Source: Aneurinibacillus soli | Lineage (GTDB): Bacteria > Bacillota > Bacilli > Aneurinibacillales > Aneurinibacillaceae | Assembly (NCBI RefSeq): GCF_002355375.1 | Contig: NZ_AP017312.1 | Coordinates: forward strand, 1,939,001-2,003,000 | Direction of reading: 5' to 3' | Length of the DNA: 64,000 nucleotides | Shown here: positions 36,869 through 52,204 of the stretch, one piece after another | Layout: every line of letters starts with the position of its first letter | Position numbering within the stretch: position 1 is the first letter of the stretch | Notes under the pieces: generated by a model | Databases searched by the model: none | What the model saw: the letters and a program-made list of their open reading frames with translations, nothing else | Told to the model about the DNA's origin: nothing | Translations under genes and position numbers: made by a program

Positions 36869-38215
36869 ATGAGTGTACGATACAAAATCCAAATAGATCC
36901 GAATACAAATGACCACTTGTTACTTCCTTGCCAGATAGCAGAAAAAATAGGCGTTTCTAAAACGGAAAAAAAAACTCTTCGTTATGGGAATTCATCTCAC
37001 TTAGTCAATATTTTGATCTCAGAACAGCAAGAGAAAGATACACTTGTATTATCTCAAAATATAATGAATGAGCTTATGATTCCTGTAAGTTCCCTGTATG
37101 AATTAATTCATGTTGAAGATGAGATACGAATTGGGCCTTTTATTGGTTTTTTACTGAGCTTAACAGACGATAAATTCGTAACGTATTTACGGCGTTTGGA
37201 ACCATATGTAAATCACTATAGTAAAGTGGGGGGGACGATTTTAGCTTTTTGTATGTCCAATGTGAATCCATATAAGCAAACAATTAATGGGTACGTGTAT
37301 AATCCCCAGACTAAGGAATGGGACCAGGGCGATTTTGGGTATCCATCATCGTTTTTCATTATGAGTCGGATGATTCCGTATACATGTAGACAACATTTTA
37401 AAGTCACGACGGGAGGAAATACGTTTTTTAACAACTTCAATTATGACAAGTGGGAGATGCATCAGCTGTTACGCAACTCCAAAGTAAACGCCTATTTACC
37501 TCCCACTCAATTATTCCAGCGTGCAGAACAATTCGTGGACTTTTTAGAAGAAAATAGTGACTTCTATGTAAAACCCCTTACAGGTTCAAGAGGGAGAGGC
37601 GTGGCAAGAGTCAGAAAAACATCAAAGGGCACACGAATCTCGTATCGAGATAAGGGAAGAAATCATCAACTACTTGTTCAGAAGCCCCATGAGCTAACAT
37701 TATCAATAAATGAAAATCTATCAGCATACTCCTGTTTGCTTCAAAAAACAATTGATCTTATTACTTGGAGCGATCGTATTGTAGATTTTCGCATACTTAT
37801 GGTAAGGAATCAGGAAGGAGAATGGAAAGATGTGGGTTTTTTTGCTAGGTGTGGATCAAGGGGGAGTGTAGTCAGTAACATTTCTGCCGGTGGAAATGCT
37901 TATAAAGGTGAGAACTTTTTGAAAAAAGTGCTTAAATTTACCGAAAAACAAACAAACCACGTGGTACGGAGCATGAAACAATTGGCGTATGATATTGGAG
38001 AAATTTTAGATCAATCAGATGTACATTGTGGAAATATGGGCGTCGATATCGGATTGGATAAACAGGGAGGCTTGTGGATTTTGGAAATTCAACATAATAA
38101 TCCAGATCCTACGCTTGCTCTTGACGCAGGCGACAAACGAGCATACTTACAAGTTCTACTTCACCATCTGCTCTATTTAAAAGGTCTTGCAGGATGGAAG
38201 GAACACAGTGGATGA
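36869..38215 (+). CDS. YheC/YheD-family ATP-grasp protein (spore coat-associated), paralogue A
   Basis: 448 aa. The N-terminal half is the YheC/D-specific region (GPFIGFLLSL, VGGTILAFCMSNVN, GYVYNPQTKEWDQG). The C-terminal half is an ATP-grasp ligase: the nucleotide Lys in FYVKPLTGSRGRGVARV, RIVDFRILMVRN, GSRGSVVSNISAGG, and metal ligands in WILEIQHNNPDP. ATP-grasp enzymes join a carboxylate to an amine. Start at 36869 with GAGGGG upstream. Its stop overlaps the racemase start (ATGA), and a MurF-like ligase follows the same way: a tightly coupled three-gene unit. The substrate is unknown. Confidence 0.88.
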   Translation: MSVRYKIQIDPNTNDHLLLPCQIAEKIGVSKTEKKTLRYGNSSHLVNILISEQQEKDTLVLSQNIMNELMIPVSSLYELIHVEDEIRIGPFIGFLLSLTDDKFVTYLRRLEPYVNHYSKVGGTILAFCMSNVNPYKQTINGYVYNPQTKEWDQGDFGYPSSFFIMSRMIPYTCRQHFKVTTGGNTFFNNFNYDKWEMHQLLRNSKVNAYLPPTQLFQRAEQFVDFLEENSDFYVKPLTGSRGRGVARVRKTSKGTRISYRDKGRNHQLLVQKPHELTLSINENLSAYSCLLQKTIDLITWSDRIVDFRILMVRNQEGEWKDVGFFARCGSRGSVVSNISAGGNAYKGENFLKKVLKFTEKQTNHVVRSMKQLAYDIGEILDQSDVHCGNMGVDIGLDKQGGLWILEIQHNNPDPTLALDAGDKRAYLQVLLHHLLYLKGLAGWKEHSG

Positions 38216-38940
38216 AAACCATCGGAATTATCGGTGGAATGGGTTCGATGGCAACCGTCGATTTATTTGAGAAGATTGTTACGCATACTCCGGCTACGGC
38301 GGATCAACAGCATATTCCTATCCTTATTTATAACAACCCCTCTATTCCGTCCCGCATGGATGCCATCCTAAAAGGGACGAAAAGTCCTTTATTCGAGCTA
38401 GTGAGATCAGCACAAAAATTAGAAAAAGCAGGTGCTGATTTTCTGATTATGCCTTGTAATACAGCGCATTATTGGCTTTCTGACATACAATCTCAGATTC
38501 GTATTCCACTATATAGTATGATTGAACACGCTGCTTCTTACATTGAACAGTTTTACAGTCAGTTACAGGGTTCGATCCTCTTACTGGCATCTAAAGCTAC
38601 GATTCAGAAGAAACTTTATCAACAAGCTTTTTTTCAAAAAGGATTACCCTTACAGTTACCTGAGCCTGAGGAGCAAAAAGTGATTGATTTCGCCATTCAG
38701 GATGTAAAGGCATCTATCATTGAGAGTAATAAGTGGATCCCTGAAATGAATAAGATGCTTGAAAAATATGATCGGATAAGAGGAACTTCAGCAGTGCTGG
38801 GAGCTTGTACCGAAATTCCATTACTGTTTCCGTATTTGTATGAACCGATTCTCAAACTAGATCCTACACTCATGATAGCGAAACATGCCATTACGTTAGC
38901 ACAAGAAGATGCGGTTTTAAAGAAGGGGGAAAATGAATGA
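38212..38940 (+). CDS. Aspartate/glutamate racemase family protein
   Basis: 242-aa cofactor-independent racemase of the Asp/Glu/hydantoin family. Both catalytic cysteines are visible, in MPCNTAHYW and in GACTEIPLL, after the opening TIGIIGGMGSMATVDLFEKI. The fold favours aspartate racemase over MurI glutamate racemase. Its ATGA overlap with the ATP-grasp gene before it and with the Mur ligase after it implies that a D-amino acid (D-Asp or D-Glu) is fed to those ligases. Start at 38212 rather than the in-frame ATG at 38194 because GGAAGG lies between them. Confidence 0.9.
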   Translation: MKTIGIIGGMGSMATVDLFEKIVTHTPATADQQHIPILIYNNPSIPSRMDAILKGTKSPLFELVRSAQKLEKAGADFLIMPCNTAHYWLSDIQSQIRIPLYSMIEHAASYIEQFYSQLQGSILLLASKATIQKKLYQQAFFQKGLPLQLPEPEEQKVIDFAIQDVKASIIESNKWIPEMNKMLEKYDRIRGTSAVLGACTEIPLLFPYLYEPILKLDPTLMIAKHAITLAQEDAVLKKGENE

Positions 38941-40340
38941 AATCTCTATCACTAGGAGAAATCCTCCCAATTATGAAAGGAAAGCTTCTTCAAGGAAATA
39001 TAGATGAAAAAATTATAAACGTAACGACGGAGCCGGATGAGGTTCAAAAAAACAGCTTGTTTTTTGATGTCTATCCTACGTTGACTGACTGGAACATGTT
39101 TCCTTTTAGAGACTCTGTCGTTATCGTTACGGATCATCCCTGGCGAATGGAAGGGAAGGTGGCAAGAAAGATAAGTGTGGTCTATGTGAAGAGTATCGAG
39201 CAGGCCTACTGGGCCTTTGTGGAGTTTTATCGAGGGCTATTCGATATTCCTGTTATTGGAGTTACCGGAACGTGTGGAAAAACGACGACTACGGAAATGC
39301 TGAAAACGGTTCTATCTCAAAATTACTGCGTACAGTCTACCTTTGATGGAAAAAACAGTTTATCATATAACCTTCCTTATGTAATGGAGATTGATGAACA
39401 AACAGAAGCAGCTGTTTATGAGATGGGGGTTTCTCATCCTGGATGTATCGAAAATAGTTGTCGGCATTTTCAACCACAAATCGGAATTATCTTGAATATT
39501 GGCGTGTATCATTTACTAGGATGCAAAACGTTTGACAACTATATAAAGGCTAAAAAAGAAATGGTGAAGGGAATTCATCCTCAGGGAACGCTTATTCTTA
39601 ACGCAGACGATGAAAACATCGGCAAAATTGATGTATCATCATTTCAAGGGGAGATTGTGTATTTTGGGACGTCAGAACGTGCGCACTTCCAGGCGAAGAA
39701 TATTCGTTATGAGGAAGGGGGCATGAGCTATACGTTACGAAAGGATAATCAGAAGTATCCCGTATTTGTATCAGGCTATGGCGAACATAATGTTCTCAAT
39801 TCACTGGCCTGTTTAGCCGCAGCTACTTCCATTATCGGAAACGTAGAGCAAGCCATTCAAGGCTTATCTGAGTTTAGACAGGTTCGGCAACATTTAGAAT
39901 TCTTGAAAGGTCCTAAAGGTTGCACGCTTATTGATGATACATGGAACTGTACGCCGCCTTCCATGACCTCTTCATTAAAAGTGCTTACGGATACAGCGCA
40001 AAAGCGCCAAAAAATTGCAGTCTTAGGTTACATGCCACAATTGGGTGATAATGCCAAGGATGAATATGATAATATGGCGTATCATGTGAAGGCAGCTGCT
40101 GTTGACCACGTAATCGTCATCGGGGAAGCTCGTCTCATTGGGCAGAAAGCAGAGAAGTTAGGAGTGAGTAAAAAGCGGATCAGTTATTGTGAAACAGCAG
40201 AGGAAGTCCAACAAGCCGTAACGCCGTTTTTGAAGAAGAATTCACTTGTTTTACTTAAATTCCCTTATAAATTTCGATTGTCAAAAGACCATGCCTTCCA
40301 AAAATTTATGCAGTGGATTAGAATGGAAAACAATCAATAA
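38937..40340 (+). CDS. MurF-like Mur ligase family protein, paralogue A
   Basis: 467-aa ATP-dependent amide ligase of the Mur family. It has a MurF-type N-terminal domain, a P-loop in GVTGTCGKTTTTEML, the carbamyl-Lys region with NIGVYHLLGC, the Asn/His motif GYGEHNVLNSLACLAAA and a C-terminal domain (LIDDTWNCTPPSM). Real murF sits in the dcw cluster, so this and its paralogue at 49857 are likely specialised. Together with an ATP-grasp partner it resembles a split cyanophycin-synthetase layout. ATGA overlap with the racemase. Confidence 0.88.
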   Translation: MKSLSLGEILPIMKGKLLQGNIDEKIINVTTEPDEVQKNSLFFDVYPTLTDWNMFPFRDSVVIVTDHPWRMEGKVARKISVVYVKSIEQAYWAFVEFYRGLFDIPVIGVTGTCGKTTTTEMLKTVLSQNYCVQSTFDGKNSLSYNLPYVMEIDEQTEAAVYEMGVSHPGCIENSCRHFQPQIGIILNIGVYHLLGCKTFDNYIKAKKEMVKGIHPQGTLILNADDENIGKIDVSSFQGEIVYFGTSERAHFQAKNIRYEEGGMSYTLRKDNQKYPVFVSGYGEHNVLNSLACLAAATSIIGNVEQAIQGLSEFRQVRQHLEFLKGPKGCTLIDDTWNCTPPSMTSSLKVLTDTAQKRQKIAVLGYMPQLGDNAKDEYDNMAYHVKAAAVDHVIVIGEARLIGQKAEKLGVSKKRISYCETAEEVQQAVTPFLKKNSLVLLKFPYKFRLSKDHAFQKFMQWIRMENNQ

Positions 40341-40368
40341 AACCATGCAGCTACTGCATGGTTTTATT
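40336..40368. terminator. Bidirectional terminator between Mur ligase and ParR-like gene
   Basis: AATAAAACCATGCAG pairs perfectly with CTGCATGGTTTTATT around a three-base loop. It overlaps the Mur ligase stop codon and lies just beyond the convergent ParR-like gene. Confidence 0.9.
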
Positions 40369-40381
40369 GATTGTAACAACA

Positions 40382-40735
40382 TTATCCACCGAATGCATCT
40401 AATAGTTCCTCTATGTCTTTTGGATCGAGGCTAGTTACAGGAGAAGAAGGGTTTGGAGTTCTGTACGTATTTGGGAAAGAATTTATTGAAATTCCCTGAT
40501 TCATTATTTTTTTGATTTCCAGTAATTCCTGCATAATTTCATCATACGATCCCTTCGACAATTTGGGTTCCAGATATTCATGAAGAGCAGATAGAATCAG
40601 GTGTGTTAGTGTACGATTTCTAGAATGATAGTCAATTTGCTCCTGAACTTTTGGAGAGACAGGATGCTCGATTCCCGTTTTGACATCAATATATTCCCTG
40701 GGGATACTGACAGATTCAGAATAAAGCCGAGTCAT
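40382..40735 (-). CDS. ParR-like DNA-binding adaptor (inferred)
   Basis: 117 aa, no strong family signature. The central part (HSRNRTLTHLILSALHEYLEPKL) could form a ribbon-helix-helix or short helical DNA-binding unit, and the C-terminal tail ends in an acidic amphipathic stretch DPKDIEELLDAFGG. ParR adaptors have the same architecture: an N-terminal RHH and a C-terminal ParM-capping peptide. The gene follows the ParM-like gene by 11 bases on the same strand, the standard parMR order, which is the main support. AAAGGGTG precedes the ATG. Confidence 0.6.
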   Translation of the reverse strand: MTRLYSESVSIPREYIDVKTGIEHPVSPKVQEQIDYHSRNRTLTHLILSALHEYLEPKLSKGSYDEIMQELLEIKKIMNQGISINSFPNTYRTPNPSSPVTSLDPKDIEELLDAFGG

Positions 40736-40746
40736 GTGATCACCCT

Positions 40747-41928
40747 TTATTTTGTGATGGCTTCCGCAAATTGAGGGTTTTTCTTAGCATGATTTATTTT
40801 TGCAAGAATCATGAGACCTAAAACATTTAACCTCTCAAGATTTTCTGGAAACAGTAAATCGATTGGCCTTCCTTTTTCCATCCATTTGACGGCTGCTTCC
40901 TGTATTTGTCTTTGTGCAAGTTTAGCAGCTCCCCCAACAGCAATGTAGCGAGTGGCTCCTTTAATTTCACTTGAACTGTTCCGCACGCGATCAAATAATT
41001 CTAGGTATTTCATGGCCATTAATTTTAGTTGTGGTATAACATATTTACTTATATCTTTTTTGACCCCGGCGAATGGCTCAACATACCATTCGGATGGACC
41101 TGCGAATAGCTTTTCTTCCAATTCAGACCGGGAATCAAATTTATATAGCTCGTTTTTACTCACTTTCTGGATAATGCTATCAAGAAATAAATTGATTCCA
41201 AACGGTTCTCCCTCAACGGACGCTACCGGCTTATTATTTTTAATCCCTACGAAATCAACGGTATCTCCACCTAAATCACCAATAATAATCCCCTTTTGAG
41301 ATTCTTTGATAAGGGAATCATCTTTAATTCCTAACGTTTCTACGTCTCTCGTAAGTCCTAAGTATGCACAGGCTCCCTCAGAACCTACAATGACATCTTT
41401 GATATGAAGTTTAATCAAAACTTCTTTGGGTTCAATAACTCCGGGGATTTTGTGGAGAATGACAGAGTGTGTTCCGAGCAGACGATGTTTAACAAGTTCT
41501 TTTTTCTCCTTATATTGCGTTGTAGGTAAAGAAACAGCCAGTTGATCGATTTCATAGGTCAGTTCAGTTGTTTCAGGATTTTGTAGAAATGCGTGGTACG
41601 CTGCGAGTCCGAAAAGGAGAATATAGGTACGGTCTTCGTCTACCTTTTGATTATTGAAGGATGTCAGACTAACGTTTCGCTGTCTTGTTGCTGCTTTTCC
41701 GATATAGAAGATTTCTCTCTTATCCAAAATGGCCTGGCTTTTAACTTCTACGATTAGGTTCTCTTCTAACAGGGCATCGTCTTCATCATACGGCTTTTCA
41801 TAAAATTGGTCATCATACAAAGCGATGGCATTAGGCAGCTGGTATTCGGAAAATTGCCCGTTGGTGCATGCCAACATTTTGTACCAGCTGTTTCCTAAAT
41901 CAACAGCCATAAATTGATTGTTATCCAT
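40747..41928 (-). CDS. ParM-like actin-type ATPase
   Basis: 393-aa actin-fold filament protein of the ParM/AlfA/Alp group. The three nucleotide motifs are visible: phosphate 1 AVDLGNSWYKMLA at the N-terminus, phosphate 2 IIGDLGGDTVDFVGI near residue 195 and the adenosine motif YIAVGGAAKLA near residue 330. Such proteins push DNA molecules apart, usually low-copy plasmids. Start at 41928 is set by AAGGAGGTGGG. No replication gene or clear iteron array is nearby; the pair lies within a spore-envelope locus, so a chromosomal or sporulation role, or a plasmid remnant, are both open. Confidence 0.85.
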   Translation of the reverse strand: MDNNQFMAVDLGNSWYKMLACTNGQFSEYQLPNAIALYDDQFYEKPYDEDDALLEENLIVEVKSQAILDKREIFYIGKAATRQRNVSLTSFNNQKVDEDRTYILLFGLAAYHAFLQNPETTELTYEIDQLAVSLPTTQYKEKKELVKHRLLGTHSVILHKIPGVIEPKEVLIKLHIKDVIVGSEGACAYLGLTRDVETLGIKDDSLIKESQKGIIIGDLGGDTVDFVGIKNNKPVASVEGEPFGINLFLDSIIQKVSKNELYKFDSRSELEEKLFAGPSEWYVEPFAGVKKDISKYVIPQLKLMAMKYLELFDRVRNSSSEIKGATRYIAVGGAAKLAQRQIQEAAVKWMEKGRPIDLLFPENLERLNVLGLMILAKINHAKKNPQFAEAITK

Positions 41929-42048
41929 TATACCCACCTCCTTTTGAATCCTATGCAGCAACGGAGGGCAGATGTGCAAGTACCCATCCAGAAAGAAACC
42001 CGTCCGTAATCCACTAAAATCAGCTAGTGTCCCTGTTATATACGTCTA

Positions 42049-42076
42049 TACCGATGATTCCATAAAGCATAAGATA
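42049..42076 (+). promoter_or_regulatory. Possible sigma-K-type sporulation promoter
   Basis: TACC, 15 bases, then CATAAGATA, close to the sigma-K pattern mACm-N16/17-CATAnnnTA. It lies 30 bases before the first CsxC-like gene. Confidence 0.5.
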
Positions 42077-42106
42077 AAGTATCCTAAATTTAGAGGAGGA
42101 AACTAA

Positions 42107-42940
42107 ATGTCTTCTTGTGAAAATCAAGGGCCAATTCACTTTAACCCTACAGCTTCCGTTGAAGAATGTGATAATAAACAATTACAGGTTCACTCTAGGA
42201 CTGTTACTAGAGCGAGTGTCCCTGTCCTGCTAGGCCAATTTCAAATTCGTACAACGTTATCTGCGAATATTCATTTTCCTGACCCTGTTCTAGAGATCAA
42301 AGATGCCAAAAAAGTTATCAAGCTTACTCAATGTGCTCTACTCTTAAGCCCGGCCGACACTGATGATGATGATCGTGACGACGATGATGATCGTCATCGT
42401 CACGATGATTTGTTAATTATCAAAGGTTTTGTGCGTAAAAATATTCAATACGCTACACCAATGATGGGAGATCACCATCATCCAGGCTCGCATCATCCAG
42501 ACTCGCATCATCCAGACCATCCAGACCATAGTTGTGTCAGATCTGACCTGCGTTCCTTGACTTGTGATGTTCCTTTCCAGTGTTCATCTCCTATTACTAA
42601 GCGATTTACAAACAAACCAATCCGTCCTGTTACTAATGCGCGTAGAGAGTTTGATTTCTTCAGGTCCCGGGATTTAGGCATGGGTTTTCCGGAGAAAGAT
42701 CACTTATTATCAAACGATTTGTCTCAATTCCATCAACTAAGTACTCAGCATTACAATCCATTTCCATTCTGTGAATTAGTGAACAGCCGAATCCTAGAAT
42801 GGGATGAATCGACAAATCGTGAGACTTTCAATCATGCAAATGTTGGTGAAGGTGTGTTCACTAATGTAGTGGAAAAAATGCGAGTACAATTCACAGTTAA
42901 TGTATTTCAAAATCAAATCATATCCGGGTTTAAATCATAA
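42107..42940 (+). CDS. CsxC-like spore-surface protein with Asp/His-rich inserts
   Basis: 277 aa. It shares the core of the CsxC/BC_2427-type family (related to SPOCS/DUF3794 domains): VPVLLGQFQIRTTLSANIHFP, LEIKDAKKVIKLTQC, IIKGFVRKNIQYAT, and a terminal block FTNVVEKMRVQFTVNVFQNQ. Two low-complexity inserts are unique to this copy: an Asp/Arg/His run near residues 84-101 and a His/Pro/Asp repeat (HHPDSHHPDHPDH) near 124-143, which could bind metal. It also has several Cys. CsxC proteins are exosporium components in clostridia, hence the assignment. AGAGGAGG precedes the ATG. Confidence 0.8.
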   Translation: MSSCENQGPIHFNPTASVEECDNKQLQVHSRTVTRASVPVLLGQFQIRTTLSANIHFPDPVLEIKDAKKVIKLTQCALLLSPADTDDDDRDDDDDRHRHDDLLIIKGFVRKNIQYATPMMGDHHHPGSHHPDSHHPDHPDHSCVRSDLRSLTCDVPFQCSSPITKRFTNKPIRPVTNARREFDFFRSRDLGMGFPEKDHLLSNDLSQFHQLSTQHYNPFPFCELVNSRILEWDESTNRETFNHANVGEGVFTNVVEKMRVQFTVNVFQNQIISGFKS

Positions 42941-42956
42941 CCTTCACCAGGTCATA

Positions 42957-42989
42957 AAATAAGCACCTTCCTTCGGGTGCTTATTTTTA
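42957..42989 (+). terminator. Terminator after first CsxC-like gene
   Basis: AAATAAGCACC pairs with GGGTGCTTATTTTT around a seven-base loop. Confidence 0.88.
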
Positions 42990-43017
42990 TGTTGTTTACG
43001 TCTTGTAGAGTAATCCT

Positions 43018-43081
43018 AATAGGTTTTCGCCTGCTTTTTCCGCGAATGCCCAGAGGCATTTGCCTATACATAGTCATTTGT
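43018..43081 (+). repeat. 64-bp upstream direct repeat, copy 1
   Basis: Aligns without gaps with 44009-44072, before the next paralogue. It contains the hairpin GCGAATGCC/GGCATTTGC and the invariant block CCTATACATAGTCATTTGT. A sporulation-type -10, CATACAGTA, follows at 43091. Confidence 0.75.
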
Positions 43082-43123
43082 ACGGAATAGCATACAGTAT
43101 CGTAAATCTAAGGGGGAAATGAA

Positions 43124-43930
43124 ATGTTTGATTCATGCGAACATGATCGTAAAAATAACCGTATGATTTCAGCCAACCAGCCTGATTGTGAAAACAAACC
43201 TGTACATCCTTCCGTAACGATCGGACACGTAGTGATGACGGCTCCTGTTGTCCTGGCGGAGCTGAACATACAAGTGAACATGGATGCTACGATCACGTTC
43301 CCGGAAGCGGTGCTTGAGATTAAGGACATCAAAAAAACGGTGAAACTTACGCAGTGCCGTCTGTTATTACCTACAAAAAAACTGTTTATTAAGGGATTTG
43401 TACGTAAAAATATTCAGTACGCAAGCCCTGCGCCCGAAATTAGCCCATCTTCAAATCGCTCGATCTCATCTGATTTACATTCTTTTACCGTAGATATTCC
43501 ATTCGATTGTGTAACTGAGATTCATAAGTTTTTGACTGAGCCTATCTCGCCAGAATTCAATCACCGTCGAGAGTTTGATTTCTTTCACAAATCATCACTT
43601 CCTTCGGGGCACCCGGAAAAAGATCATTTACTTTCTAATGATCTTTCCCAATTCCATCAAACCAGTAGCCAGCATTATAATGAACTTCCCTTCTGTGAAC
43701 TCGTATATAGCCATATCATAGAGTGGGATGAGGCAATCGACCGTATGCCTCTGCCAGGCCATACACCAATCGGAGAAGGGTATTTTACAATGGTAGAGGA
43801 GAAGATGGTTCTTGACCTTATCGTAAAAGTACTTCAGAAGCAGCAAGTCCGCATTTGTTCAGCAACGAATAGAGGTTCCTCAGGCTTTGGGGACTGGAGT
43901 CACAAAGAAGAAGCAGATTGTTCCAAATAA
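43124..43930 (+). CDS. CsxC-like spore-surface protein, paralogue 2
   Basis: 268 aa, very similar to the protein at 44119 and homologous to 42107. Core blocks: APVVLAELNIQVNMDATITF, LEIKDIKKTVKLTQCRLLL, LFIKGFVRKNIQYASPAP, HPEKDHLLSNDLSQFHQ and LPFCELVYSHIIEWDEAID. Four or more conserved Cys residues suggest cross-linking. The C-terminus has a unique extension (SSGFGDWSHKEEADCSK). GGGGG precedes the start, and the upstream 64-bp repeat is shared with the next gene. Spore envelope role is inferred from family and context. Confidence 0.82.
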   Translation: MFDSCEHDRKNNRMISANQPDCENKPVHPSVTIGHVVMTAPVVLAELNIQVNMDATITFPEAVLEIKDIKKTVKLTQCRLLLPTKKLFIKGFVRKNIQYASPAPEISPSSNRSISSDLHSFTVDIPFDCVTEIHKFLTEPISPEFNHRREFDFFHKSSLPSGHPEKDHLLSNDLSQFHQTSSQHYNELPFCELVYSHIIEWDEAIDRMPLPGHTPIGEGYFTMVEEKMVLDLIVKVLQKQQVRICSATNRGSSGFGDWSHKEEADCSK

Positions 43931-44008
43931 GTGAGTGGGGCTGACCCAAAAGTCTAAATAGACGAGAGGGTGATAGCCCCGTTTCCTGTTTTGTTCTCCA
44001 TTCATATG

Positions 44009-44118: not shown

Positions 44119-44874
44119 ATGTCTAATTCGTGTGACAGTAATGTTGATTCTAAACATATGGTGTCAGCTACCCAGCCTGATTGTGAGAGTAAGCCGGTGC
44201 ATCCTTCTGTCACCATAGGTAGCGTTATCATGAAAACTCCTGTTGTCCTGGCAGAGCTGACGGTTCAAGTAAATATGGATGCTACGATCACGTTCCCGGA
44301 AGCGGTGCTTGAAATTAAGGACATCAAAAAAACAGTAAAACTTACGCAATGCCGTCTTTTGCTGCCTACAAATAAACTCTTTTTGAAGGGCTTTGTTCGT
44401 AAAAACATTCAATATGCAAGCCCTGCACCGAAGATAGAATCATCCACCTCGTCTTCTATTTCATCTACTCTACATTCTTTTACCATAGACATACCGTTCC
44501 ATTGTGTAACCGAGATCAAAAAGTTTTTGGTTGACCCGATCGCTCCCGAGTATAACAAGCGGCAAGAGTTTGATTTCTTTCACAAATCATCACTCCCTTC
44601 AGGGCACCCGGAAAAAGATCACCTGCTTTCCAATGATCTTTCTCAATTCCATCAAACCAGTCGCCAGCATTATAATGAACTTCCCTTCTGTGAACTCGTA
44701 TACAGCAATATCATAGAGTGGGATGAAGCAATCGATCGCATGCCGCTATCGGACCATACACCAATCGGAGAAGGGTATTTTACAACGGTAGAGGAGAAGA
44801 TGGTTCTTGATCTTACTGTAAAAGTACTTCAGGAGCAGCAAGTCCGTATTTGTTCAACAACCAATAGGGACTAA
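44119..44874 (+). CDS. CsxC-like spore-surface protein, paralogue 3
   Basis: 251 aa, the closest relative of the protein at 43124. Long stretches are identical in protein and nearly so in DNA, showing recent tandem duplication including the upstream region. It shares LAELTVQVNMDATITFPEA, KLTQCRLLLPTNKLFLKGF, HKSSLPSGHPEKDHLL and PLSDHTPIGEGYF. It lacks the C-terminal extension of its neighbour. AGGGGG precedes the start. Confidence 0.82.
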   Translation: MSNSCDSNVDSKHMVSATQPDCESKPVHPSVTIGSVIMKTPVVLAELTVQVNMDATITFPEAVLEIKDIKKTVKLTQCRLLLPTNKLFLKGFVRKNIQYASPAPKIESSTSSSISSTLHSFTIDIPFHCVTEIKKFLVDPIAPEYNKRQEFDFFHKSSLPSGHPEKDHLLSNDLSQFHQTSRQHYNELPFCELVYSNIIEWDEAIDRMPLSDHTPIGEGYFTTVEEKMVLDLTVKVLQEQQVRICSTTNRD

Positions 44875-44894
44875 ATCGTTTATAATCTGAACCT

Positions 44895-46061
44895 ATGATG
44901 AGGAGGGGAGGGGAATGGAACGGACGTCTTTACGATCTGTTCCATACTACTATGAGCAATCGGAGAAAATCAGAACAGAAAGTACCCAGGAAAAGACGGA
45001 ATCCAAAGGAGAACAGCCTCGCCCCTCTTCTCTACATCAACCAGGCTGTTATAAGTGATCCAGCAGAAAAGAAAAAAGATTCTTTTGTCGCCCAACCTGT
45101 CCGTTTACCTCCCTCCAGGATCGATAGCCGGAGAATGCAACAGAGTCAGTCAGGGCAGCAAGAACGGACGGAGCAATCTCGTAGACAAAGTAGTAATCGG
45201 GCAATCAACCTTGATATTTCAACTTTTCCGGGTATGGGGATTTTTGATGAAACGAATGATAACGTCATTGCATCAGACGAAGAAAGTCAAATTGATGAAA
45301 GTACGCTTCACTCGGGGCATAATGAAATAATCGAGGAAGAAATAGAAGAAGATTCCTCTTCTAATGATTCCATTGAGTCAGTGAACGAAACAACTACTGA
45401 TGAATTCGAGCAAGAAAATATGTCTGAAGTATGTAAAGAAGAGATAGAGATAACAGATATCCATGCAGAACCTGATCTTTTTCCTGATGTGATTGAGAGT
45501 GAACAGGAACTGGATGTTCAGCCGATGATCATAAAGGTCCCCGTATTACTTGCTAATGTGAATACCGAGTTAACTGTGCAAAGCTGTTATTCAGTAGCAA
45601 CCCCAATGACATCCATTAATCGAGTGGATTGGGCAGTTAAAGAAATAAAAGGACAGGTGTATCCTCATTCAAACGTTGTATATTTGAAGGGGATTCTGAT
45701 AGCTAACGTGGAGTATGTCAAGGAAGGGCCTAATCACAACATTATGCAGGAAAAAATCAACATACCTTGGAGTAAAACTACAAATATTACATGGATAAAT
45801 CGGCCTGACTGGCCACATAAACAATACGAAGAGTATACATTCCACACGCATGAGGGTGACGGAGAATTCGAGGTTCATCGAGAAATGTTTGAAACGTTTG
45901 CCGAAGAGGTTCACTATGATATTGACCACATTCAGGTTGTTTCGGTTACGAGGATTGAGACGAGTACGCTTGCTTTCGATGCAGAAGTAAACCTATCCAT
46001 TACTCTCTCGCAAAATCAATATGTGAACTTGAATTCTTATAGTAGAAAAAATAACCCTTAG
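44895..46061 (+). CDS. Acidic, Ser-rich protein with C-terminal SPOCS/CsxC-like domain; start uncertain
   Basis: 388 aa as drawn. Residues 20-115 are basic and Gln/Ser/Arg-rich, 120-205 strongly acidic (EEEIEEDSSSND), and the C-terminal 190 residues resemble the CsxC core (IIKVPVLLANVNTELTVQ, VVYLKGILIANVEYV, INLS-type ending LSITLSQNQY). The start is odd: the excellent site AGGAGGGGAGGGGA at 44901-44914 leads to an ATG at 44915 in another frame, giving only 47 codons (to 45058). The drawn frame has ATG at 44895 or 44952 without a ribosome site. A frameshift, leader peptide or sequence error is possible. Probably cotranscribed with 44119. Confidence 0.65.
   Translation: MMRRGGEWNGRLYDLFHTTMSNRRKSEQKVPRKRRNPKENSLAPLLYINQAVISDPAEKKKDSFVAQPVRLPPSRIDSRRMQQSQSGQQERTEQSRRQSSNRAINLDISTFPGMGIFDETNDNVIASDEESQIDESTLHSGHNEIIEEEIEEDSSSNDSIESVNETTTDEFEQENMSEVCKEEIEITDIHAEPDLFPDVIESEQELDVQPMIIKVPVLLANVNTELTVQSCYSVATPMTSINRVDWAVKEIKGQVYPHSNVVYLKGILIANVEYVKEGPNHNIMQEKINIPWSKTTNITWINRPDWPHKQYEEYTFHTHEGDGEFEVHREMFETFAEEVHYDIDHIQVVSVTRIETSTLAFDAEVNLSITLSQNQYVNLNSYSRKNNP
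44915..45058 (+). CDS. Possible 47-aa overlapping ORF with a strong ribosome-binding site
   Basis: It starts one base after AGGAGGGGAGGGGA and reads MERTSLRSVPYYYEQSEK..., ending at TGA 45058. It lies wholly inside the 388-aa frame. It may be the true N-terminus of that protein joined by a frameshift, or a translational leader. No homologue is known to me. Confidence 0.35.
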   Translation: MERTSLRSVPYYYEQSEKIRTESTQEKTESKGEQPRPSSLHQPGCYK

Positions 46062-46085
46062 CCCACTAGTGGACCGAGGGTTATT
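46049..46085. terminator. Bidirectional terminator between convergent spore-surface genes
   Basis: AATAACCCT pairs with AGGGTTATT across a loop of about 19 bases, spanning the stop codon of the plus-strand gene and lying before the end of the minus-strand gene at 46105. Confidence 0.75.
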
Positions 46086-46104
46086 CCTTTTAGAATGGCT
46101 AACA

Positions 46105-46782
46105 CTACGATCTTGTTTGGAATTGAGTAAGTGTAATGAGCATGTTTATTGTCATTTTCTCATGAACTCTTTTAAATCTACCAAATGAATCAAAGTCCCG
46201 TAAGAAGTCTTTTTCAAAAATGGCTGCTTTGTTTAGTTCACACTCAATTGGCTCGTTAAAGACCTCAAATGATATTCCCCCAGTGACGCAGCGGTCTCCT
46301 TCCATTTCATTGTTGGCAAGTTGGATAAATTGATTTTCGCCAAGTACATTCTTATCACTGAAATCAACATGGGGATTAATATTATTTAATGAAACGATAC
46401 AGTGAAACGGTACGTTTACGGAATGGTCACGAACAAATGGCGAAACTCCATCCGTAAATTGAAAGTTTTTATGGACAAATCCGGCAACAAATAATTGAGC
46501 AGGCGCTTTTGTGTCGTCAGGGTCGTTTGGGTTTGAAAGTGAAACCACTTGACATTCAGTTAAATGCACATTTTTTCTCACAGATTTAAGTTCCTTTGCA
46601 GCATGAGGCAGACAAATATTAGCTTCCACACTGGCTATAACATTTACTTTAGCAATTACTTTACGAACTTTCTTGCCACCTGTAGATACAACGGTTGCTG
46701 TACATACTTCATTTATTGTTTTCGCTGTATCACTTGCCGATGCTGGAGGACAGGAATGTGTCCCGCACGTATTCTTTTTCAA
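46105..46782 (-). CDS. CsxC-like spore-surface protein, paralogue 4
   Basis: 225 aa and the most diverged member. It keeps the layout: Cys-rich N-terminus (KKNTCGTHSCPP), IAKVNVIASVEANICLPHAA, KSVRKNVHLTECQVV, LFVAGFVHKNFQFTDG, VPFHCIVSLNN and the terminal MTINMLITLTQFQ. I use TTG at 46782, eight bases from AAGGAG; a GTG three codons earlier overlaps that site. It is convergent with the acidic SPOCS-like gene and on the same strand as the ATP-grasp gene at 46951. Confidence 0.78.
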   Translation of the reverse strand: MKKNTCGTHSCPPASASDTAKTINEVCTATVVSTGGKKVRKVIAKVNVIASVEANICLPHAAKELKSVRKNVHLTECQVVSLSNPNDPDDTKAPAQLFVAGFVHKNFQFTDGVSPFVRDHSVNVPFHCIVSLNNINPHVDFSDKNVLGENQFIQLANNEMEGDRCVTGGISFEVFNEPIECELNKAAIFEKDFLRDFDSFGRFKRVHEKMTINMLITLTQFQTRS

Positions 46783-46950
46783 ACTGATCACTCCTTTTAA
46801 TTAATGGCCCAAAATAGTAAGGAATGATTGAATCTATCCTTTTATTTTGGTCTACTATATTATTTATGCAAAAACTTATGAGTTGTCTTGGACATTTACC
46901 ATGAGTCAAACAACTACTTTTAAAAATCGCTGTTGTACACAACAGCTCGA

Positions 46951-48312
46951 TCATGAGGATTCGGTAAAGCCTGCCAGGTACTTGCAATACAGCAGATTGT
47001 AACGTCTGGCGCGTACTAACGCATCTTCTTGACCGGCAGCTAGAGCAATATAGTGATCCGGGTTTTGATTGTTAATTTCCAATAACCATAGTTTGCGATT
47101 TTGATCGATGGCAAGGTCAAAGCCTAGATTGCCAGCGTGTATCCCGTACGATTCCATCACTTCGGCTGCATCTACTGCTATCCCGGTCATTTGCTCCTCC
47201 CACTTCTGCGCTTCCTCATAAGAGCTGTCTAATAAATCCACCAGTGTATCTTGACCCCATCTGGCATATCCGCCTGCAGTAATATTACTAACAATACTGT
47301 TTTTCGCTCCGTACCTGCTAAATAGCCCAGTATTACTCCACTTGCCGCATTGATCTTTTACGAGCATTAAACGAAAGTCTACAATTCTTTGATCTGTAGA
47401 AAGGAGAGAAAGGGATTGTTGTATGATGTATTCTTCTGGTGATAGGCGTTTTTTGAAAAATGAGTAAAATTCAGGAGGAGTGGATAGTACTAGGCGGTGG
47501 TTCCCATGATGATCTTGAAAACGCACGGATACTCCATAGTGATGCAATGAACACGTGACAACACCCTGCCCCAATCTGCCTAACGTGGGTTTTACATAAA
47601 CATGTTGATGGTTTTTCAACATTTCATATAGGTCTTCCGGATCTTTATATAATGTTGTTTCAGGAAGATACGGTTCAACTTTGGGAGTTGTTTGAAGCCA
47701 TTGGTGCATTTCCCACTTACCAAAATTAGGATAATTATAAATATTGCCCTGAAGATGTGTAGAGAAATGCTTTGTTATATATTGAAATTCCTGCCACTTA
47801 TCAGTCAAGCTAACTTCCAGAATGGAAAACATAGCAGAGGGATATGAATAGGTTCCTTCTATCCATTGATGATTTTTAGGATTGTACATAAATCCATGGA
47901 TAGACAAGTCATCTGGGTTTACTCCTTCAAGTGAAAAAGTAAGAATAGCCCCACCAATGGATGGGTAATCAACGATAAAACTATCTAGAAAATGGACTCT
48001 TTCCCGCAGGAATTCATGGGAGCTTGACACAAGTATTCCGATAAATGGTCCTAAGTGGAATTGAGAATTGTCATACCGAATGTGATAAAGAGGTGAAAGG
48101 GGAATTCGCAGTGCGGTCAAAATATCTTCTGAGATATGAATTTCATTTTGATCTAACTGGTCATTTGTCGAGAGATGCACTTCCTTATTCGTACTTCCAA
48201 AATATAAAGGTAGCTGCTGTATAGGAGTAGCAGGCAAATGATCTGTAACTTTTGGATGGACCGCTATACTTTGTTTTCTTTGCTTATCTACCGTAATTTT
48301 ATATGGCTCCAT
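46951..48312 (-). CDS. YheC/YheD-family ATP-grasp protein, paralogue B
   Basis: 453 aa. It has the same two-part build as paralogues A and C: N-terminal GPFIGILVSSS, IGGAILTFSLEGVNPDD and FMYNPKNHQWIEG, then the ATP-grasp with VYVKPTLGRLGQGVV, RIVDFRLMLVKD, GAKNSIVSNITAGG, HAGNLGFDLAID and WLLEINNQNPD. Start at 48312 is fixed by GGAGGA eight bases upstream; the longer open frame overlaps the divergent gene. Unlike A and C it is monocistronic, with no Mur ligase beside it. Confidence 0.87.
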   Translation of the reverse strand: MEPYKITVDKQRKQSIAVHPKVTDHLPATPIQQLPLYFGSTNKEVHLSTNDQLDQNEIHISEDILTALRIPLSPLYHIRYDNSQFHLGPFIGILVSSSHEFLRERVHFLDSFIVDYPSIGGAILTFSLEGVNPDDLSIHGFMYNPKNHQWIEGTYSYPSAMFSILEVSLTDKWQEFQYITKHFSTHLQGNIYNYPNFGKWEMHQWLQTTPKVEPYLPETTLYKDPEDLYEMLKNHQHVYVKPTLGRLGQGVVTCSLHHYGVSVRFQDHHGNHRLVLSTPPEFYSFFKKRLSPEEYIIQQSLSLLSTDQRIVDFRLMLVKDQCGKWSNTGLFSRYGAKNSIVSNITAGGYARWGQDTLVDLLDSSYEEAQKWEEQMTGIAVDAAEVMESYGIHAGNLGFDLAIDQNRKLWLLEINNQNPDHYIALAAGQEDALVRARRYNLLYCKYLAGFTESS

Positions 48313-48511
48313 ATATAATTCCTCCGAATGTTTATGACAGAACAATGGGTTCTCGTTATTCATATGTACAGGGATAAAGAAAAGTCTAGGCATGTGAAGG
48401 AGGAGGGGGAAAATAGGCAATGTACTCTGGGCAAATGCCCGAAACCGATTGTTATCTTTAGTAATAGAATGGGTACGAAAAGAAGTATAGGCAAATAGAG
48501 GGAGATTCATA

Positions 48512-49870
48512 ATGTCAAAATTTACGTTACGAGTGAGTTCAAAAGACCGAGGGCAGCTCTCCTTGCATCCATTGCAAGCGCAAAAGTTAGGGCTTGTTAG
48601 GCAAAACATGCGACTTCAATTTGGATCAAAGTCTATTCCGATTTTTTTATCCATCCGCTCTAGTCAAAATGAAAATGAGTTGATTATTTCACAAAACATC
48701 TTCGAGAAATTTCCCATTCCATTATGTAATCGATATGAACTTCAAATAAAGGACGACATATTGCAAGTAGGGCCGTATGTTAGTTTTTTAACTTCTTATT
48801 ATCAGTCTGATTTAGACAATTACCTTTGCAATCTTCGGGATTACTTGAAATACTATGAAGAAATTGGCGGAGCTGTTTTAGCCTTTGCATTAAAAGGAGT
48901 CCAATCTTCCGAGTGTGTAATTGAAGGTTACATGTACAATCCATTAACTGAAAATTGGGTCAAAGGGGTATACCCTTATCCAGATGCTGTGTTTGTTCGA
49001 GGGCATGTAAATAGTAAGGAATGGCGCGACCATTACCTAGAAGTCAAGGGGGATCGAACGCTATTCAATGACTTTTATTTTAATAAATGGGAAATGCATC
49101 AACTCCTTGATTCATCAAAGCATTTTGAAGGGTATTTGCCAGCAACTATCCTTGCTCAAGACTCCGATGAATTCTTTTCTTTTCTACGACAGCATTCCTC
49201 CGTTTATTTGAAGCCGGTTCACGGGACAATGGGTGTTTCAATTCTTAAAGTATCCAGAAGTAAGGCAGGCATATCCTTCCGGTTTAGAGACGGAGAAACG
49301 AATAAAAATACAATGTTTACAAGTGTAGACGAAGCAGCAGCTTTTTTAAAATCTGTTCTGAAAGATGAACCCTATATTGCTCAACAATCGATTCCGTTAG
49401 CCGTATATCAGCAAAGGATGATGGATTTTAGATTAATCGTAGTCAAAAATGGAGATGGACAATGGGAGTATATGGGCATGATTGGTCGTTACGGTGCCAA
49501 GAAAAGCGTGGTTAGTAATATATCGGCTGGTGGTATGGCTCATAAAGGGGAAGTCGCCCTTCAAAAAGCATTTAGTCTGAACAAGAATGAAGCGAAAAAG
49601 CTACATCAGAAAATGTCAGTACTGGCTATGAAGATTGCTACTTTTTTTGATCAATCAGGTCTTCATTGTGGGAATTTGGGAATTGATCTCGGAGTCGATC
49701 GACACCAAAAGATTTGGATCATCGAGGTTCAGCATTATAGTCCAGCGCACAGCATTGCCCTAGATGTTGGGGATGAGGGAATGTACCAACGGATTTTACG
49801 AAATAACATGCTTTATTTGCGAAAACTTGCCTGTTATGCAGAAGGTAGGAATAAGGATGAAAACTCTTAG
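48512..49870 (+). CDS. YheC/YheD-family ATP-grasp protein, paralogue C
   Basis: 452 aa. N-terminal YheC/D region (VGPYVSFLTSYY, IGGAVLAFALKGVQ, GYMYNPLTENWVKG) and ATP-grasp module (VYLKPVHGTMGVSILKV, RMMDFRLIVVKN, GAKKSVVSNISAGG, HCGNLGIDLGVD, WIIEVQHYSP). The acidic metal ligands and the nucleotide Lys are kept. AGAGGGAG precedes the ATG. It overlaps the following Mur ligase by 14 bases, and that in turn overlaps a DUF2156 gene: a second coupled ligase unit, parallel to that at 36.9 kb but with an acyltransferase instead of the racemase. Confidence 0.88.
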   Translation: MSKFTLRVSSKDRGQLSLHPLQAQKLGLVRQNMRLQFGSKSIPIFLSIRSSQNENELIISQNIFEKFPIPLCNRYELQIKDDILQVGPYVSFLTSYYQSDLDNYLCNLRDYLKYYEEIGGAVLAFALKGVQSSECVIEGYMYNPLTENWVKGVYPYPDAVFVRGHVNSKEWRDHYLEVKGDRTLFNDFYFNKWEMHQLLDSSKHFEGYLPATILAQDSDEFFSFLRQHSSVYLKPVHGTMGVSILKVSRSKAGISFRFRDGETNKNTMFTSVDEAAAFLKSVLKDEPYIAQQSIPLAVYQQRMMDFRLIVVKNGDGQWEYMGMIGRYGAKKSVVSNISAGGMAHKGEVALQKAFSLNKNEAKKLHQKMSVLAMKIATFFDQSGLHCGNLGIDLGVDRHQKIWIIEVQHYSPAHSIALDVGDEGMYQRILRNNMLYLRKLACYAEGRNKDENS

Positions 49871-51248
49871 CGTAAAAGAAATTACAATGGCAGTTAGTGG
49901 TGAACTGGTCAAAGGTTCGAGCGAACGCATCATCGAGAACGTTGTCACACATCCCAATGATTTAGCTTATGATACGCTTCTTTTTGATCTAGACAGTCAG
50001 AGCCATTTTCATACGAATGTGTTTAGAGATCATCCACTGACGGTCGTAGTCACAGAGAACGCCCATCTGTTTATGGGTAAAAACCATGTAACAGTGATAC
50101 AAGTAAAAAACGTAAAAGAGGCGTTTCAACGATTTATCCGCTTTTATCGTCAACTCTGGGATATTCCTGTTGTTGGAGTCACGGGGACTTGTGGAAAAAC
50201 GACAGTAAAAGAGATGATTGCACATATTCTGTCAAAAAGCATGCAAGTGGTATACACCGATAAGAGCAAAAACTCTCTGGAGAGGAATTTAAGATATTTA
50301 TTGCGTATCGATGAAAAAATAGATGCAGCTGTTTTGGAAATGGGTGTGGCTTGCCCGGATGATTTAATTCAAAGTTGTAACTATTTTCAACCTGATATTG
50401 GTATTATTACGACGATTGGGACGGATCACCTGGAGCATTGTGGTTCGCAAGATAACTATGTCCAAGAAAAAGCAAAGTTATTGAAAGGGATGAAAAATAG
50501 AGGATTCCTCATTCTTAACGCAGATAATGAGTATATCAATAAAATGAATCTGCGTAATTTCTCAGGGAAGATCATTTATTTTGGATTCAATCGGAAAGCC
50601 GATTTCCGGGCAAAGGACATCACGTATTCAGAGTATGGAATGAAATTTACCCTGCTTGCTTATGGTCAGTCTTACCGAGTATATGTACCTGGATTCGGTG
50701 AACATAATGTACGCAATGCTCTTGCAGCAATCGCTGCAAGTCATATTATAGGGATACGTATAGCAGAGGCTGTGAAGCGTATCGGATCCTTTCGCCATGT
50801 TGAGAGCCATTTGGAGATGATGAAAGGCTATAATGGCTCGATGATTCTTGATGATACGTGGAGTGCAAATCCGACGTCTGCGGAAGCAGCGCTTGACGTC
50901 ATCAAGCAAATTGCAAATGGGAGAAGAACGGTTGTCGTTTTTGGGGAAATGGCGTTATTGGGGGAGTATTCCCACATCAAGCATAGAGAAGTAGGAAAAC
51001 AGATACAAACAAATCATATTCATGATCTGATTACGATCGATAAAGCAAGCGATACGATTGCTTCTCGTGCCATCGAACTAGGAATGAATCCAAGAAATGT
51101 ATATCGGTGCGAATCTATGCAGGAATTTACCCGTGCTTTTCTCCCGCTATTACATGCAAACACGGTAGTCTTGCTTAAGACTTCTATGCTTGATCCAAGA
51201 ACTCAATATATCAAACAGATTGCAACGAGGGGAAAGAGCAGCATATGA
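49857..51248 (+). CDS. MurF-like Mur ligase family protein, paralogue B
   Basis: 463 aa, homologous to 38937-40340 throughout. It opens MKTLSVKEITMAVSGELVKG and has the P-loop GVTGTCGKTTVKEM, TIGTDHLEHCGS (with the HLE typical of Mur ligases, which paralogue A lacks), GFGEHNVRNALAAIAA and ILDDTWSANPTS. Here HLEHCG and DDTWSANP are close to true MurF motifs, so this copy may keep more ancestral chemistry. The start at 49857 lies within the previous gene; an earlier in-frame ATG at 49764 would overlap too deeply. Confidence 0.88.
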   Translation: MKTLSVKEITMAVSGELVKGSSERIIENVVTHPNDLAYDTLLFDLDSQSHFHTNVFRDHPLTVVVTENAHLFMGKNHVTVIQVKNVKEAFQRFIRFYRQLWDIPVVGVTGTCGKTTVKEMIAHILSKSMQVVYTDKSKNSLERNLRYLLRIDEKIDAAVLEMGVACPDDLIQSCNYFQPDIGIITTIGTDHLEHCGSQDNYVQEKAKLLKGMKNRGFLILNADNEYINKMNLRNFSGKIIYFGFNRKADFRAKDITYSEYGMKFTLLAYGQSYRVYVPGFGEHNVRNALAAIAASHIIGIRIAEAVKRIGSFRHVESHLEMMKGYNGSMILDDTWSANPTSAEAALDVIKQIANGRRTVVVFGEMALLGEYSHIKHREVGKQIQTNHIHDLITIDKASDTIASRAIELGMNPRNVYRCESMQEFTRAFLPLLHANTVVLLKTSMLDPRTQYIKQIATRGKSSI

Positions 51249-52204
51249 GGAAACTACGATTTGGAGACTCGGATTTATACAGTATTCAGCTTCATGATAA
51301 AGAGATTTTTGATGAGTACTTAAAAAAATGTGACTATCAAAATCATCTTTGGTCTTCGAATTTTGATTATCTTTGGGCAGACTCTCAGTCCGATGATAAA
51401 CGAATTCTTTGGAGAATCGTTGACGATATGCTGATTCCCTTTGTTCTTTTGAAAAAAACAGGACTCCATCTGGTCCATTTACCTTTTGGGTGTGGCACTC
51501 CTGAACAAGTCTTGTATGTTACGTATAAGAATCTACAATTTTGTAATGAATGGAATCGCAGAAATGGCTACTATCCAGCCACAGTGAGAACATTAAATAG
51601 TGAACAAATGGATTTTATTAGGGTCAGTGATAAATTTGATGAATACTTTGAATTTATGAAAATTAATGGGGTAGAGAGGTATTTCAGTATTCAAAAATTA
51701 ATTCAGCTTGTAGGAAAAGATTTTGCACGGATTCGTAATTTGATCAATCAGTTTAAGCGAAATTATCCGCAAGCAATGATTAGGGAGTATAATCCCGATG
51801 ATTATCATTCCGTATTGCAGGTAAATAAGGGTTGGAAAGAAACAGCGTCCACGAAATATTCTACTATATTTGACGATGTGTATTTCTATGAGATTATGAC
51901 ACATTACCAGGAGCTTGGGCATATAATTCTTGTTGTTGAAATCGATAAAAAAATAGTAGGACTAGTCTCAGGAGGTATAACAGCACCGGGTCAATCATGG
52001 GGATGTATTAGTAAGAGACTGAGTCAAATAAATGGATTGAATGAAGCCATGATTATAGAATTCGCAAAATATATCCATGCTTTGAATCCTCATGTTGAAT
52101 TATTAAATGTAGGTAGTGATCTAGGAGTGGACGGTCTTGTTTCTTATAAGGAAAAGTTTAGACCCGTCCGTAATCTTGAGAGGTTTAGAATAACATTACG
52201 ATAA
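51245..52204 (+). CDS. DUF2156/GNAT-fold aminoacyltransferase-like protein
   Basis: 319 aa. It resembles the soluble C-terminal domain of phosphatidylglycerol lysyltransferases (MprF), which transfer an aminoacyl group from tRNA, and Fem-type GNAT folds: ERYFSIQKLIQLVGKDFARIRNLINQF, YHSVLQVNKGWKE, NVGSDLGVDGLVSYKEKFRP and LERFRI at the end. There is no membrane flippase domain. ATGA overlap with the Mur ligase shows coupled synthesis, so it probably adds or caps a residue on the same product. Lipid aminoacylation is the alternative. Confidence 0.78.
   Translation: MRKLRFGDSDLYSIQLHDKEIFDEYLKKCDYQNHLWSSNFDYLWADSQSDDKRILWRIVDDMLIPFVLLKKTGLHLVHLPFGCGTPEQVLYVTYKNLQFCNEWNRRNGYYPATVRTLNSEQMDFIRVSDKFDEYFEFMKINGVERYFSIQKLIQLVGKDFARIRNLINQFKRNYPQAMIREYNPDDYHSVLQVNKGWKETASTKYSTIFDDVYFYEIMTHYQELGHIILVVEIDKKIVGLVSGGITAPGQSWGCISKRLSQINGLNEAMIIEFAKYIHALNPHVELLNVGSDLGVDGLVSYKEKFRPVRNLERFRITLR

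Follow-up and report, generated by a model that had tools for sequence, protein, structure and literature searches.

What is assembled by the amide-ligase genes that surround a block of spore-surface genes in Aneurinibacillus soli? The genes in question lie at positions 36869-52204 of a 64,000-nucleotide window (positions 1939001-2003000 of a single-contig genome of 4.12 Mb), and short coordinates below refer to this window. Two trios of overlapping genes are found there, one for an ATP-grasp protein, a racemase and a Mur ligase (36869-40340), the other for an ATP-grasp protein, a Mur ligase and a DUF2156 protein (48512-52204), together with a third ATP-grasp gene (46951-48312, minus strand) that is divergently oriented and outside both trios. 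The ligase genes may form one conserved module that makes a non-ribosomal peptide during sporulation for the outer layers of the spore, an answer that we regard as evenly poised. The locus itself is a composite, in which a block of CsxC-type genes (module B) is nested in the ligase genes (module A).

Gene families were called with Pfam and NCBIfam profile models against the cut-off of each model. The first trio is opened by AGa (36869-38215, plus strand), an ATP-grasp protein of the YheC/YheD type (YheCD; PF14398, 211.5 bits), followed by RAC (38212-38940, plus strand), an aspartate/glutamate-type racemase (PF01177, 109 bits, cut-off 31), and MURa (38937-40340, plus strand), a MurF-like ligase with Mur_ligase_M (120 bits, cut-off 24) and Mur_ligase_C domains. 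The second trio comprises AGb (48512-49870, plus strand; PF14398, 236.3 bits), MURb (49857-51248, plus strand; Mur_ligase_M, 147 bits, cut-off 24, and Mur_ligase_C) and a stand-alone transferase of the DUF2156/LPG_synthase_C type (51245-52204, plus strand; PF09924, 65.0 bits, cut-off 27.5). The third ATP-grasp protein, AGc, scores 220.2 bits, and all three are well above the PF14398 cut-off of 26.8. All four junctions within the trios overlap, by 4, 4, 14 and 4 bases. Both trios and the ATP-grasp gene at 46951 had been proposed in a first-pass annotation made from the sequence alone, and the profile models confirm them. Two starts needed correction: MURb begins at ATG 49857 (49854 is AGG) and AGc at about 48312 on the minus strand. 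Two genes had been overlooked, an actin-like gene (40747-41931, minus strand) and a small gene (40382-40735, minus strand).

Module A is conserved in three families. It is complete and in the same gene order in a genome of another taxonomic order (G176, locus L168), and in a genome of another family within the same order (G011, locus L039) the gene order is also kept, lacking AGb only. The orthologues are 40-57% identical to the window proteins (in G011 and G176, respectively: AGa 40 and 43%, DUF2156 protein 55 and 57%; AGc 44 and 47%; AGb 48% in G176), and the trio genes overlap at corresponding places in both genomes. The interval from MURa to AGc, or from one counterpart to the other, is about 60 bases in G011 and holds one gene reading like a methyltransferase (putative) in G176; in the window it measures 6.4 kb and is module B. 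Because the ligase genes keep their order in two further families, and because the five CsxC-type matches of the genome all lie here, the arrangement is not due to chance.

The partnership of ATP-grasp and Mur ligases extends well beyond these three loci. Eight related Mur proteins were searched against 398 genomes of Bacilli, among which B. subtilis was not identified, and a match at E <= 1e-95 was obtained in 48 of them; all 39 matches better than 1e-130 (24 genomes, window included) were retrieved and used. In a tree of 141 Mur-type proteins these 39 form one monophyletic clade (support 1.0), to which MURa and MURb belong and which carries the motif DDTW (37 proteins) or DDSW (2) at a site where D(D/N)xY prevails in MurF. 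Paralogous clades related to it (fusions, short forms and a third multi-family set) join it at 0.988, apart from other MurF-type proteins. A YheCD- or LAL-type (L-amino-acid-ligase-type) ATP-grasp or a fusion lies within 5 kb of 32 of the 39 clade members, the window's two included, vs none of 66 MurF-type controls, which were drawn from many phyla and not matched to Bacilli; neighbours were labeled by BLAST, with a fixed reference set in which proteins of the same loci were included. In nine genomes of two families, YheCD and Mur parts are joined in a single chain (nine proteins of 707-744 residues), and in the one checked by Pfam the ATP-grasp occupies the place of the MurF N-terminal domain. 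Linkage and fusion, which uphold the ATP-grasp/Mur association put forward in the first pass, are the strongest sign that AGa/MURa and AGb/MURb may act as catalytic pairs. The nine fusion loci (L175, L177, L178, L180-L183, L185 and L186) also hold a LAL-type ATP-grasp in every case, two DDTW Mur genes in eight and a CotZ-like gene in seven (BLAST label).

The link to sporulation comes from occurrence and from neighbors. Overall, 269 of the 398 Bacilli carry SpoIVA, vs 48/48 Mur-matched genomes (hypergeometric 1.5e-9) and 24/24 genomes holding the DDTW/DDSW clade (5.8e-5), statistics that are not corrected for kinship; for the 48 genomes two listings were compared by eye, and the arithmetic was scripted. 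The CotZ-like genes by seven of the nine fusions were labeled by BLAST against such genes from these same loci, and in Pfam two of the seven proteins are over the CotZ cut-off, one is slightly under and four have no match. The Priestia megaterium plasmid NZ_CP109861.1 (L224) encodes a relative of the DUF2156 protein (42% identical), and no more than 13 kb from it are found a YheC/YheD gene, genes for YjcZ sporulation proteins and a glycosyltransferase, and one for a coat protein with a CotX domain. This plasmid stretch is rich in spore-surface genes, and SPW repeat proteins are also found there. B. subtilis YheC and YheD belong to the same Pfam ATP-grasp family as AGa, AGb and AGc; their genes are described as sigma-E genes raised by SpoIIID (PMC517825), and YheD is reported to form a shell on the spore, in an account that gives its function as undetermined (PMC7911427). 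The association with sporulating genomes anticipated in the first-pass annotation is thus seen in the occurrence of SpoIVA and in the CotZ, CotX and YjcZ neighbors, but the functional tie to CsxC that formed part of the same picture is not supported (see below).

It is unlikely that the module instead makes a soluble small peptide, such as an antibiotic, an osmolyte or a signal, found in spore formers only by coincidence and with incidental spore-surface neighbors. Of the 39 clade members, 20 have a LAL-type ATP-grasp no more than 5 kb away, the L-amino-acid-ligase C-terminal domain being confirmed by Pfam on two of these ATP-grasps. Three loci (L042:4601-12606, L171:6548-14517 and L172:6419-15061) combine Mur clade members with a COOH-NH2-ligase/YheCD fusion of 880-908 residues (domains checked in L171) and with genes read as PEP mutase, (phosphonopyruvate) decarboxylase (both putative) and nucleotidyltransferase/aminotransferase (Pfam, L171), suggesting phosphonate chemistry; a phosphonate-containing ligase product is possible there. 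The spread is also patchy, the DUF2156 partner being found at E <= 1e-40 in only 6 of the 398 genomes, and the G+C content of the locus is 39.7% vs 45.7% in the remaining window. Against a soluble product stand the presence of SpoIVA in every Mur-matched genome and the coat-type genes near several relatives. Moreover, neither trio contains an exporter, and the HlyD/MacB-type genes directly downstream in the window have no relatives found in L039 or L168.

The same enzyme kinds could also serve peptidoglycan, and here the Mur ligases themselves are informative. The motifs [TS]D[ST]R and DGH are the uridine diphosphate (UDP)-binding motifs of the MurF N-terminal domain. The first, taken as [TS]D[STNA]R, occurs in 0/39 clade members vs 43/66 MurF-type controls, and the second, taken as [DN][GA]H, in 2/39 vs 57/66. 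The column of the carbamylated Lys of Mur ligases keeps its Lys in 39/39. Both MURa and MURb have the P-loop GTCGKT, the P-loop being required for entry into the tree and its presence there uninformative. Both fall short of the MurF model TIGR01143 (238.1 and 269.1 bits, respectively, cut-off 288.6), and the AlphaFold2 model of MURb (predicted local distance difference test, pLDDT, 90.9) finds its best structural match in MurF 4qf5 (Z 40.9, root-mean-square deviation 2.3 over 442 residues). Since the fold and the Lys column are kept and the UDP motifs are gone, the fold and probably the ATP chemistry have been retained, and the nucleotide-sugar acceptor has probably been lost. A role in modifying peptidoglycan during sporulation, in stem peptides or cross-bridges of the cortex or germ-cell wall, is for this locus rather improbable. 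The MurF fold is present throughout, and the set of racemase, ATP-grasp, MurF and Fem-like enzymes matches the tool kit of ATP-grasp, Mur and Fem-type ligases from which peptidoglycan peptides are said to be built (PMC2922099). However, the UDP-site motifs are missing from all or nearly all clade members, the ATP-grasp replaces the very MurF domain concerned in the checked fusion, and the genome retains a separate, ordinary MurF (genome positions 1402755-1403975) that groups with other MurFs in the tree. Mur matches on plasmids (26 records, all below 60% identity) are ordinary or distant MurFs by annotation; one on a Priestia koreensis plasmid adjoins an ATP-grasp and a carrier-protein gene, and one on an Anoxybacillus plasmid adjoins Ddl.

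The solved structure closest to RAC is the aspartate racemase of P. horikoshii (1jfl, E 1.9e-43). In aspartate racemase two cysteines are catalytic, and Arg48 and Lys164 of 1jfl bind the carboxylate; RAC has both cysteines (Cys82 and Cys199), in keeping with the racemase call of the first pass, and aligns Arg/Lys with the other two positions. The cysteate racemase model NF052483 (CuyB, cut-off 190) is passed by RAC at 208.6 bits but fails to separate the two activities, because the 1jfl control scores higher (250.9); the cysteate label was therefore dropped, and the predicted substrate is Asp-, Glu- or cysteate-like, no closer. Two more proteins over the racemase Pfam cut-off are encoded elsewhere in the genome. 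In the DUF2156 protein the PF09924 match covers residues 51-315 of 319, a solved relative is 2hqy (E 9.4e-12), and across the 319 residues every other Pfam family stays below its cut-off. In the lysyl-phosphatidylglycerol synthase MprF a membrane flippase domain precedes the synthase domain; no such flippase domain is seen here. The protein is possibly dependent on aminoacyl-tRNA. Its gene adjoins MURb in the window, G011 and G176, and in G013 (L044) it lies inside an ATP-grasp-rich Mur cluster.

The ATP-grasp proteins AGa, AGb and AGc sit together with their orthologues and one G013 protein in the YheCD tree (support values not read). E-x-N is the canonical metal motif of ATP-grasp enzymes; AGc has EIN, and the motif is kept in 3/3 copies, orthologues included. 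In AGa and AGb the motif reads EIQ and EVQ, a change taken up below. Elsewhere in the genome, four YheCD ATP-grasp genes stand in a row at about 3.67 Mb (G000:C1:3667225-3672670, L214:7225-12670), with no Mur gene in the 20 kb read; this cluster may correspond to the classical yheC/yheD locus.

Taken as one assembly line, the module would work as follows. RAC would supply a D-amino acid of the Asp/Glu type, and the AGa/MURa and AGb/MURb pairs would act as partnered amide ligases, each pair adding residues to a common acceptor other than UDP-MurNAc-peptide. The DUF2156 protein would add or cap a residue in a Fem/MprF-like manner, and the product, which could be a short peptide, a polymer or a protein modification, would end in the outer layers of the spore. 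By analogy, these enzymes would be partnered as racemase, Ddl and MurF are in making peptidoglycan, or as the ATP-grasp half of cyanophycin synthetase is with its Mur half. Linked ligases are described as often acting in succession (PMC4431377).

Each of the known systems resembles the module in part. It shares enzyme kinds and amide chemistry with the stem-peptide enzymes of peptidoglycan, and nearly the whole of the MURb model can be superposed on MurF. In contrast to that pathway, its racemase works without a cofactor (Asp/Glu type), a YheCD protein takes the place of Ddl as the ATP-grasp, the Mur ligases are under the MurF cut-off and without UDP-site motifs, and several relatives have spore-surface neighbors. 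Cyanophycin synthetase (CphA) likewise partners ATP-grasp and Mur modules, and the nine YheCD-Mur fusions have an architecture like it minus its N-terminal domain. Here, however, the modules are on separate chains, the Mur part is MurF-like, the ATP-grasp is of the YheCD family and scores for the CphA model TIGR02068 are far under its cut-off (73.1 and 78.5 bits, cut-off 850). CapB/PgsB is not among the best 25 NCBIfam matches (MURb had 28), no direct comparison with CapB/PgsB having been made. In the teichuronopeptide system, the ligase TupA serves a surface polymer distinct from murein. In G011, a further YheCD protein and a TupA-like ATP-grasp of the teichuronopeptide type follow shortly after module A (L039:14766-17042), and upstream in the same locus are genes read as glycosyltransferase-like (putative). 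Ligases of the Mur and/or ATP-grasp type are similarly linked to a non-murein surface polymer in archaeal pseudomurein (PMC11915815). The pseudomurein models listed are, in contrast, far under their cut-offs here, and the link to sporulation is a feature of the present module.

Several observations weigh against a spore-surface peptide made by these ligases, and they concern catalysis, linkage and timing. Gln replaces the metal-site Asn (E-x-Q) in all five copies of AGa (3/3) and AGb (2/2), whereas Asn is kept in the five other YheCD proteins of the genome and in the nine fusions; Gln also occurs in three YheCD proteins of L179. As the change is common to orthologues, it is not random decay. 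It may have altered the chemistry of AGa and AGb, the catalysis of which is thus uncertain, and Gln might still bind metal. The first-pass annotation had named inactive catalytic sites as a finding that would count against it, and this is touched in part: two of the three ATP-grasps carry the Gln, but AGc is canonical. Of the Mur/ATP-grasp pair that it had proposed for structure prediction, MURb gave a good model but AGb a poor one (pLDDT 53.8), which was not used. With regard to linkage, 7/39 clade members are without a YheCD- or LAL-type ATP-grasp or fusion within 5 kb, one of these being on a 5.2 kb contig. In G328 (L212) the DUF2156 gene stands by one LAL and two YheCD genes with no Mur gene in the 20 kb read, and G024 (L213) has two DUF2156 copies, the 19.5 kb read there containing neither YheCD nor Mur genes. 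YheCD-type proteins occur outside spore formers too (e.g., a match in Azospirillum); PF14398 is over its cut-off in 4/14 control genomes, B. subtilis being the sole spore former of five to give matches. In six congeneric genomes SpoIVA occurs without a clade or DUF2156 match at the limits used, and the module is therefore dispensable. Finally, no sigma-E or sigma-K consensus match is found upstream of AGa or AGc, that of AGb overlaps its own start codon, and the totals in the window are near chance (sigma-K 5 seen, 5.0 expected; sigma-E 5 seen, 3.2 expected). Enrichment before cluster genes is weak (sigma-K 8/74 vs 5/187, p = 0.011; either factor 10/74 vs 8/187, p = 0.013). Promoter matches were not used as support for the ligases.

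The genes between the trios tell a separate story. CSX1 (42107-42940, plus strand), CSX2 (43124-43930, plus strand) and CSX3 (44119-44874, plus strand) are over the cut-off of 135 of the CsxC model NF045794, with 203.0, 262.5 and, in the genome search, 266.7 bits (CSX3 also matches DUF7852, 59.7 bits). Three members of the CsxC-like set described in the first pass therefore stand, but CSX4 (46105-46791, minus strand; 133.8 and 134.2 bits) is slightly under the cut-off and the acidic ACID (44895-46061, plus strand; 34.3 and 36.4 bits) is a weak relative. These five are all the CsxC-type matches of the 4.1 Mb genome. CsxC itself was identified in purified exosporium of Clostridium sporogenes (PMC4942563); the window proteins belong to the NCBI family that bears its name, but have 6-8 cysteines vs 14, and their block is linked to an actin-like gene. 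Sigma-K-like consensus matches precede CSX1 and CSX3, and a sigma-E-like match precedes CSX2; these weakly favor a predicted mother-cell expression, of the CsxC genes only.

Module B is a separately conserved exosporium-type unit. The order small protein, actin-like, CsxC-type, CsxC-type, acidic and CsxC-type recurs in G254 and G092, of a further family, the window having one CsxC gene more, and no YheCD or Mur gene is found in the 19 kb read around it in these two genomes. G254, G092 and G104, all with module B, have no Mur match at E <= 1e-95 genome-wide; conversely, the whole genomes of G011 and G176 give no CsxC match at E <= 1e-15. CsxC occurs in 36 of the 398 Bacilli, in 5/48 Mur-matched genomes vs 31/350 others (p = 0.79) and in 4/24 clade genomes vs 32/374 (p = 0.26), so that co-occurrence is not beyond chance. 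Of the five genomes with both, two (window and G395) have the genes linked, and three (G009, G187 and G265, draft assemblies) have them on separate contigs. As the modules are conserved apart and B lies inside A here, CsxC is not shown to be the target of the ligases, and as a general partner of them it was rejected for lack of support at the genome level. The picture favored in the first-pass annotation, a single functional locus whose ligases specifically modify or cross-link the flanked CsxC proteins, is hardly probable: it is favored by the confinement of the five CsxC-type matches of the genome to the space between the trios and by the distant G395 (L173), where MUR, YheCD, LAL and CsxC genes lie inside 10 kb, but is opposed by genomes with either module and not the other and by the lack of genome-level co-occurrence. 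The CsxC block may use the ligase product but need not.

Within module B, the actin-like protein ALP (ALP_N, 39.2 bits, cut-off 26.3) has relatives 76-79% identical in G092, G104 and G254, and adjoins the CsxC block in 4/4 genomes with a close copy (279 searched; G104 by coordinates only). The small protein encoded 3' of it has no Pfam match and has relatives 43 and 48% identical in L227 and L228. The pair stands beside CsxC genes in four genomes of two families (window 40382-41931; L227:12146-13746; L228:6763-8423), and the small protein is a possible adaptor of the actin. Plasmid segregation pairs of the ParM/ParR type consist of an actin-like protein and a small DNA-binding adaptor, with a repeat centromere and carriage on a plasmid. 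No repeat array was found in 40200-42200, and plasmid carriage of the actin-like gene was dropped as an explanation: searched at E <= 1e-20, neither the plasmid nor the phage collection yielded a relative. It would be surprising to find exosporium genes associated with an actin-like filament. The Aneurinibacillus thermoaerophilus plasmid pAT1 (L261, 9980-10732) encodes a CsxC relative (53% identical), near phage tail/baseplate genes and an IS630 transposase.

At the border of the modules, a perfect 21-nt inverted repeat (40330-40374) between the convergent MURa and small gene is probably a transcription terminator. A DDE transposase gene lies downstream of the locus (56976-58289), and together with the low G+C content it is consistent with acquired DNA.

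An open-access literature search, at the level of listings with a few passages, returned no description of this ligase system. A 2009 amidoligase survey may have predicted related operons, and for this reason no priority is claimed. The nesting seen here indicates that exosporium-type genes form modules able to sit within other modules. Relatives of YheD that are operon-linked and fused to Mur ligases offer a concrete, testable biochemical hypothesis. If it is right, the spores of some Bacilli would bear a layer or modification of ligase-made peptide not described before, with consequences for adhesion, resistance, germination and the composition of the coat. More tentatively, spore-forming Bacilli may possess a second dedicated assembly line for spore-surface peptides, in which YheC/YheD ATP-grasps are partnered with MurF paralogues (the DDTW and fusion clades) and supplemented by a D-amino acid and aminoacyl transfer here, and by LAL dipeptide ligases or phosphonate enzymes elsewhere. 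Such an assembly line would assign a biochemical function to YheC/YheD and bring to light a class of peptides or polyamides at the spore surface.

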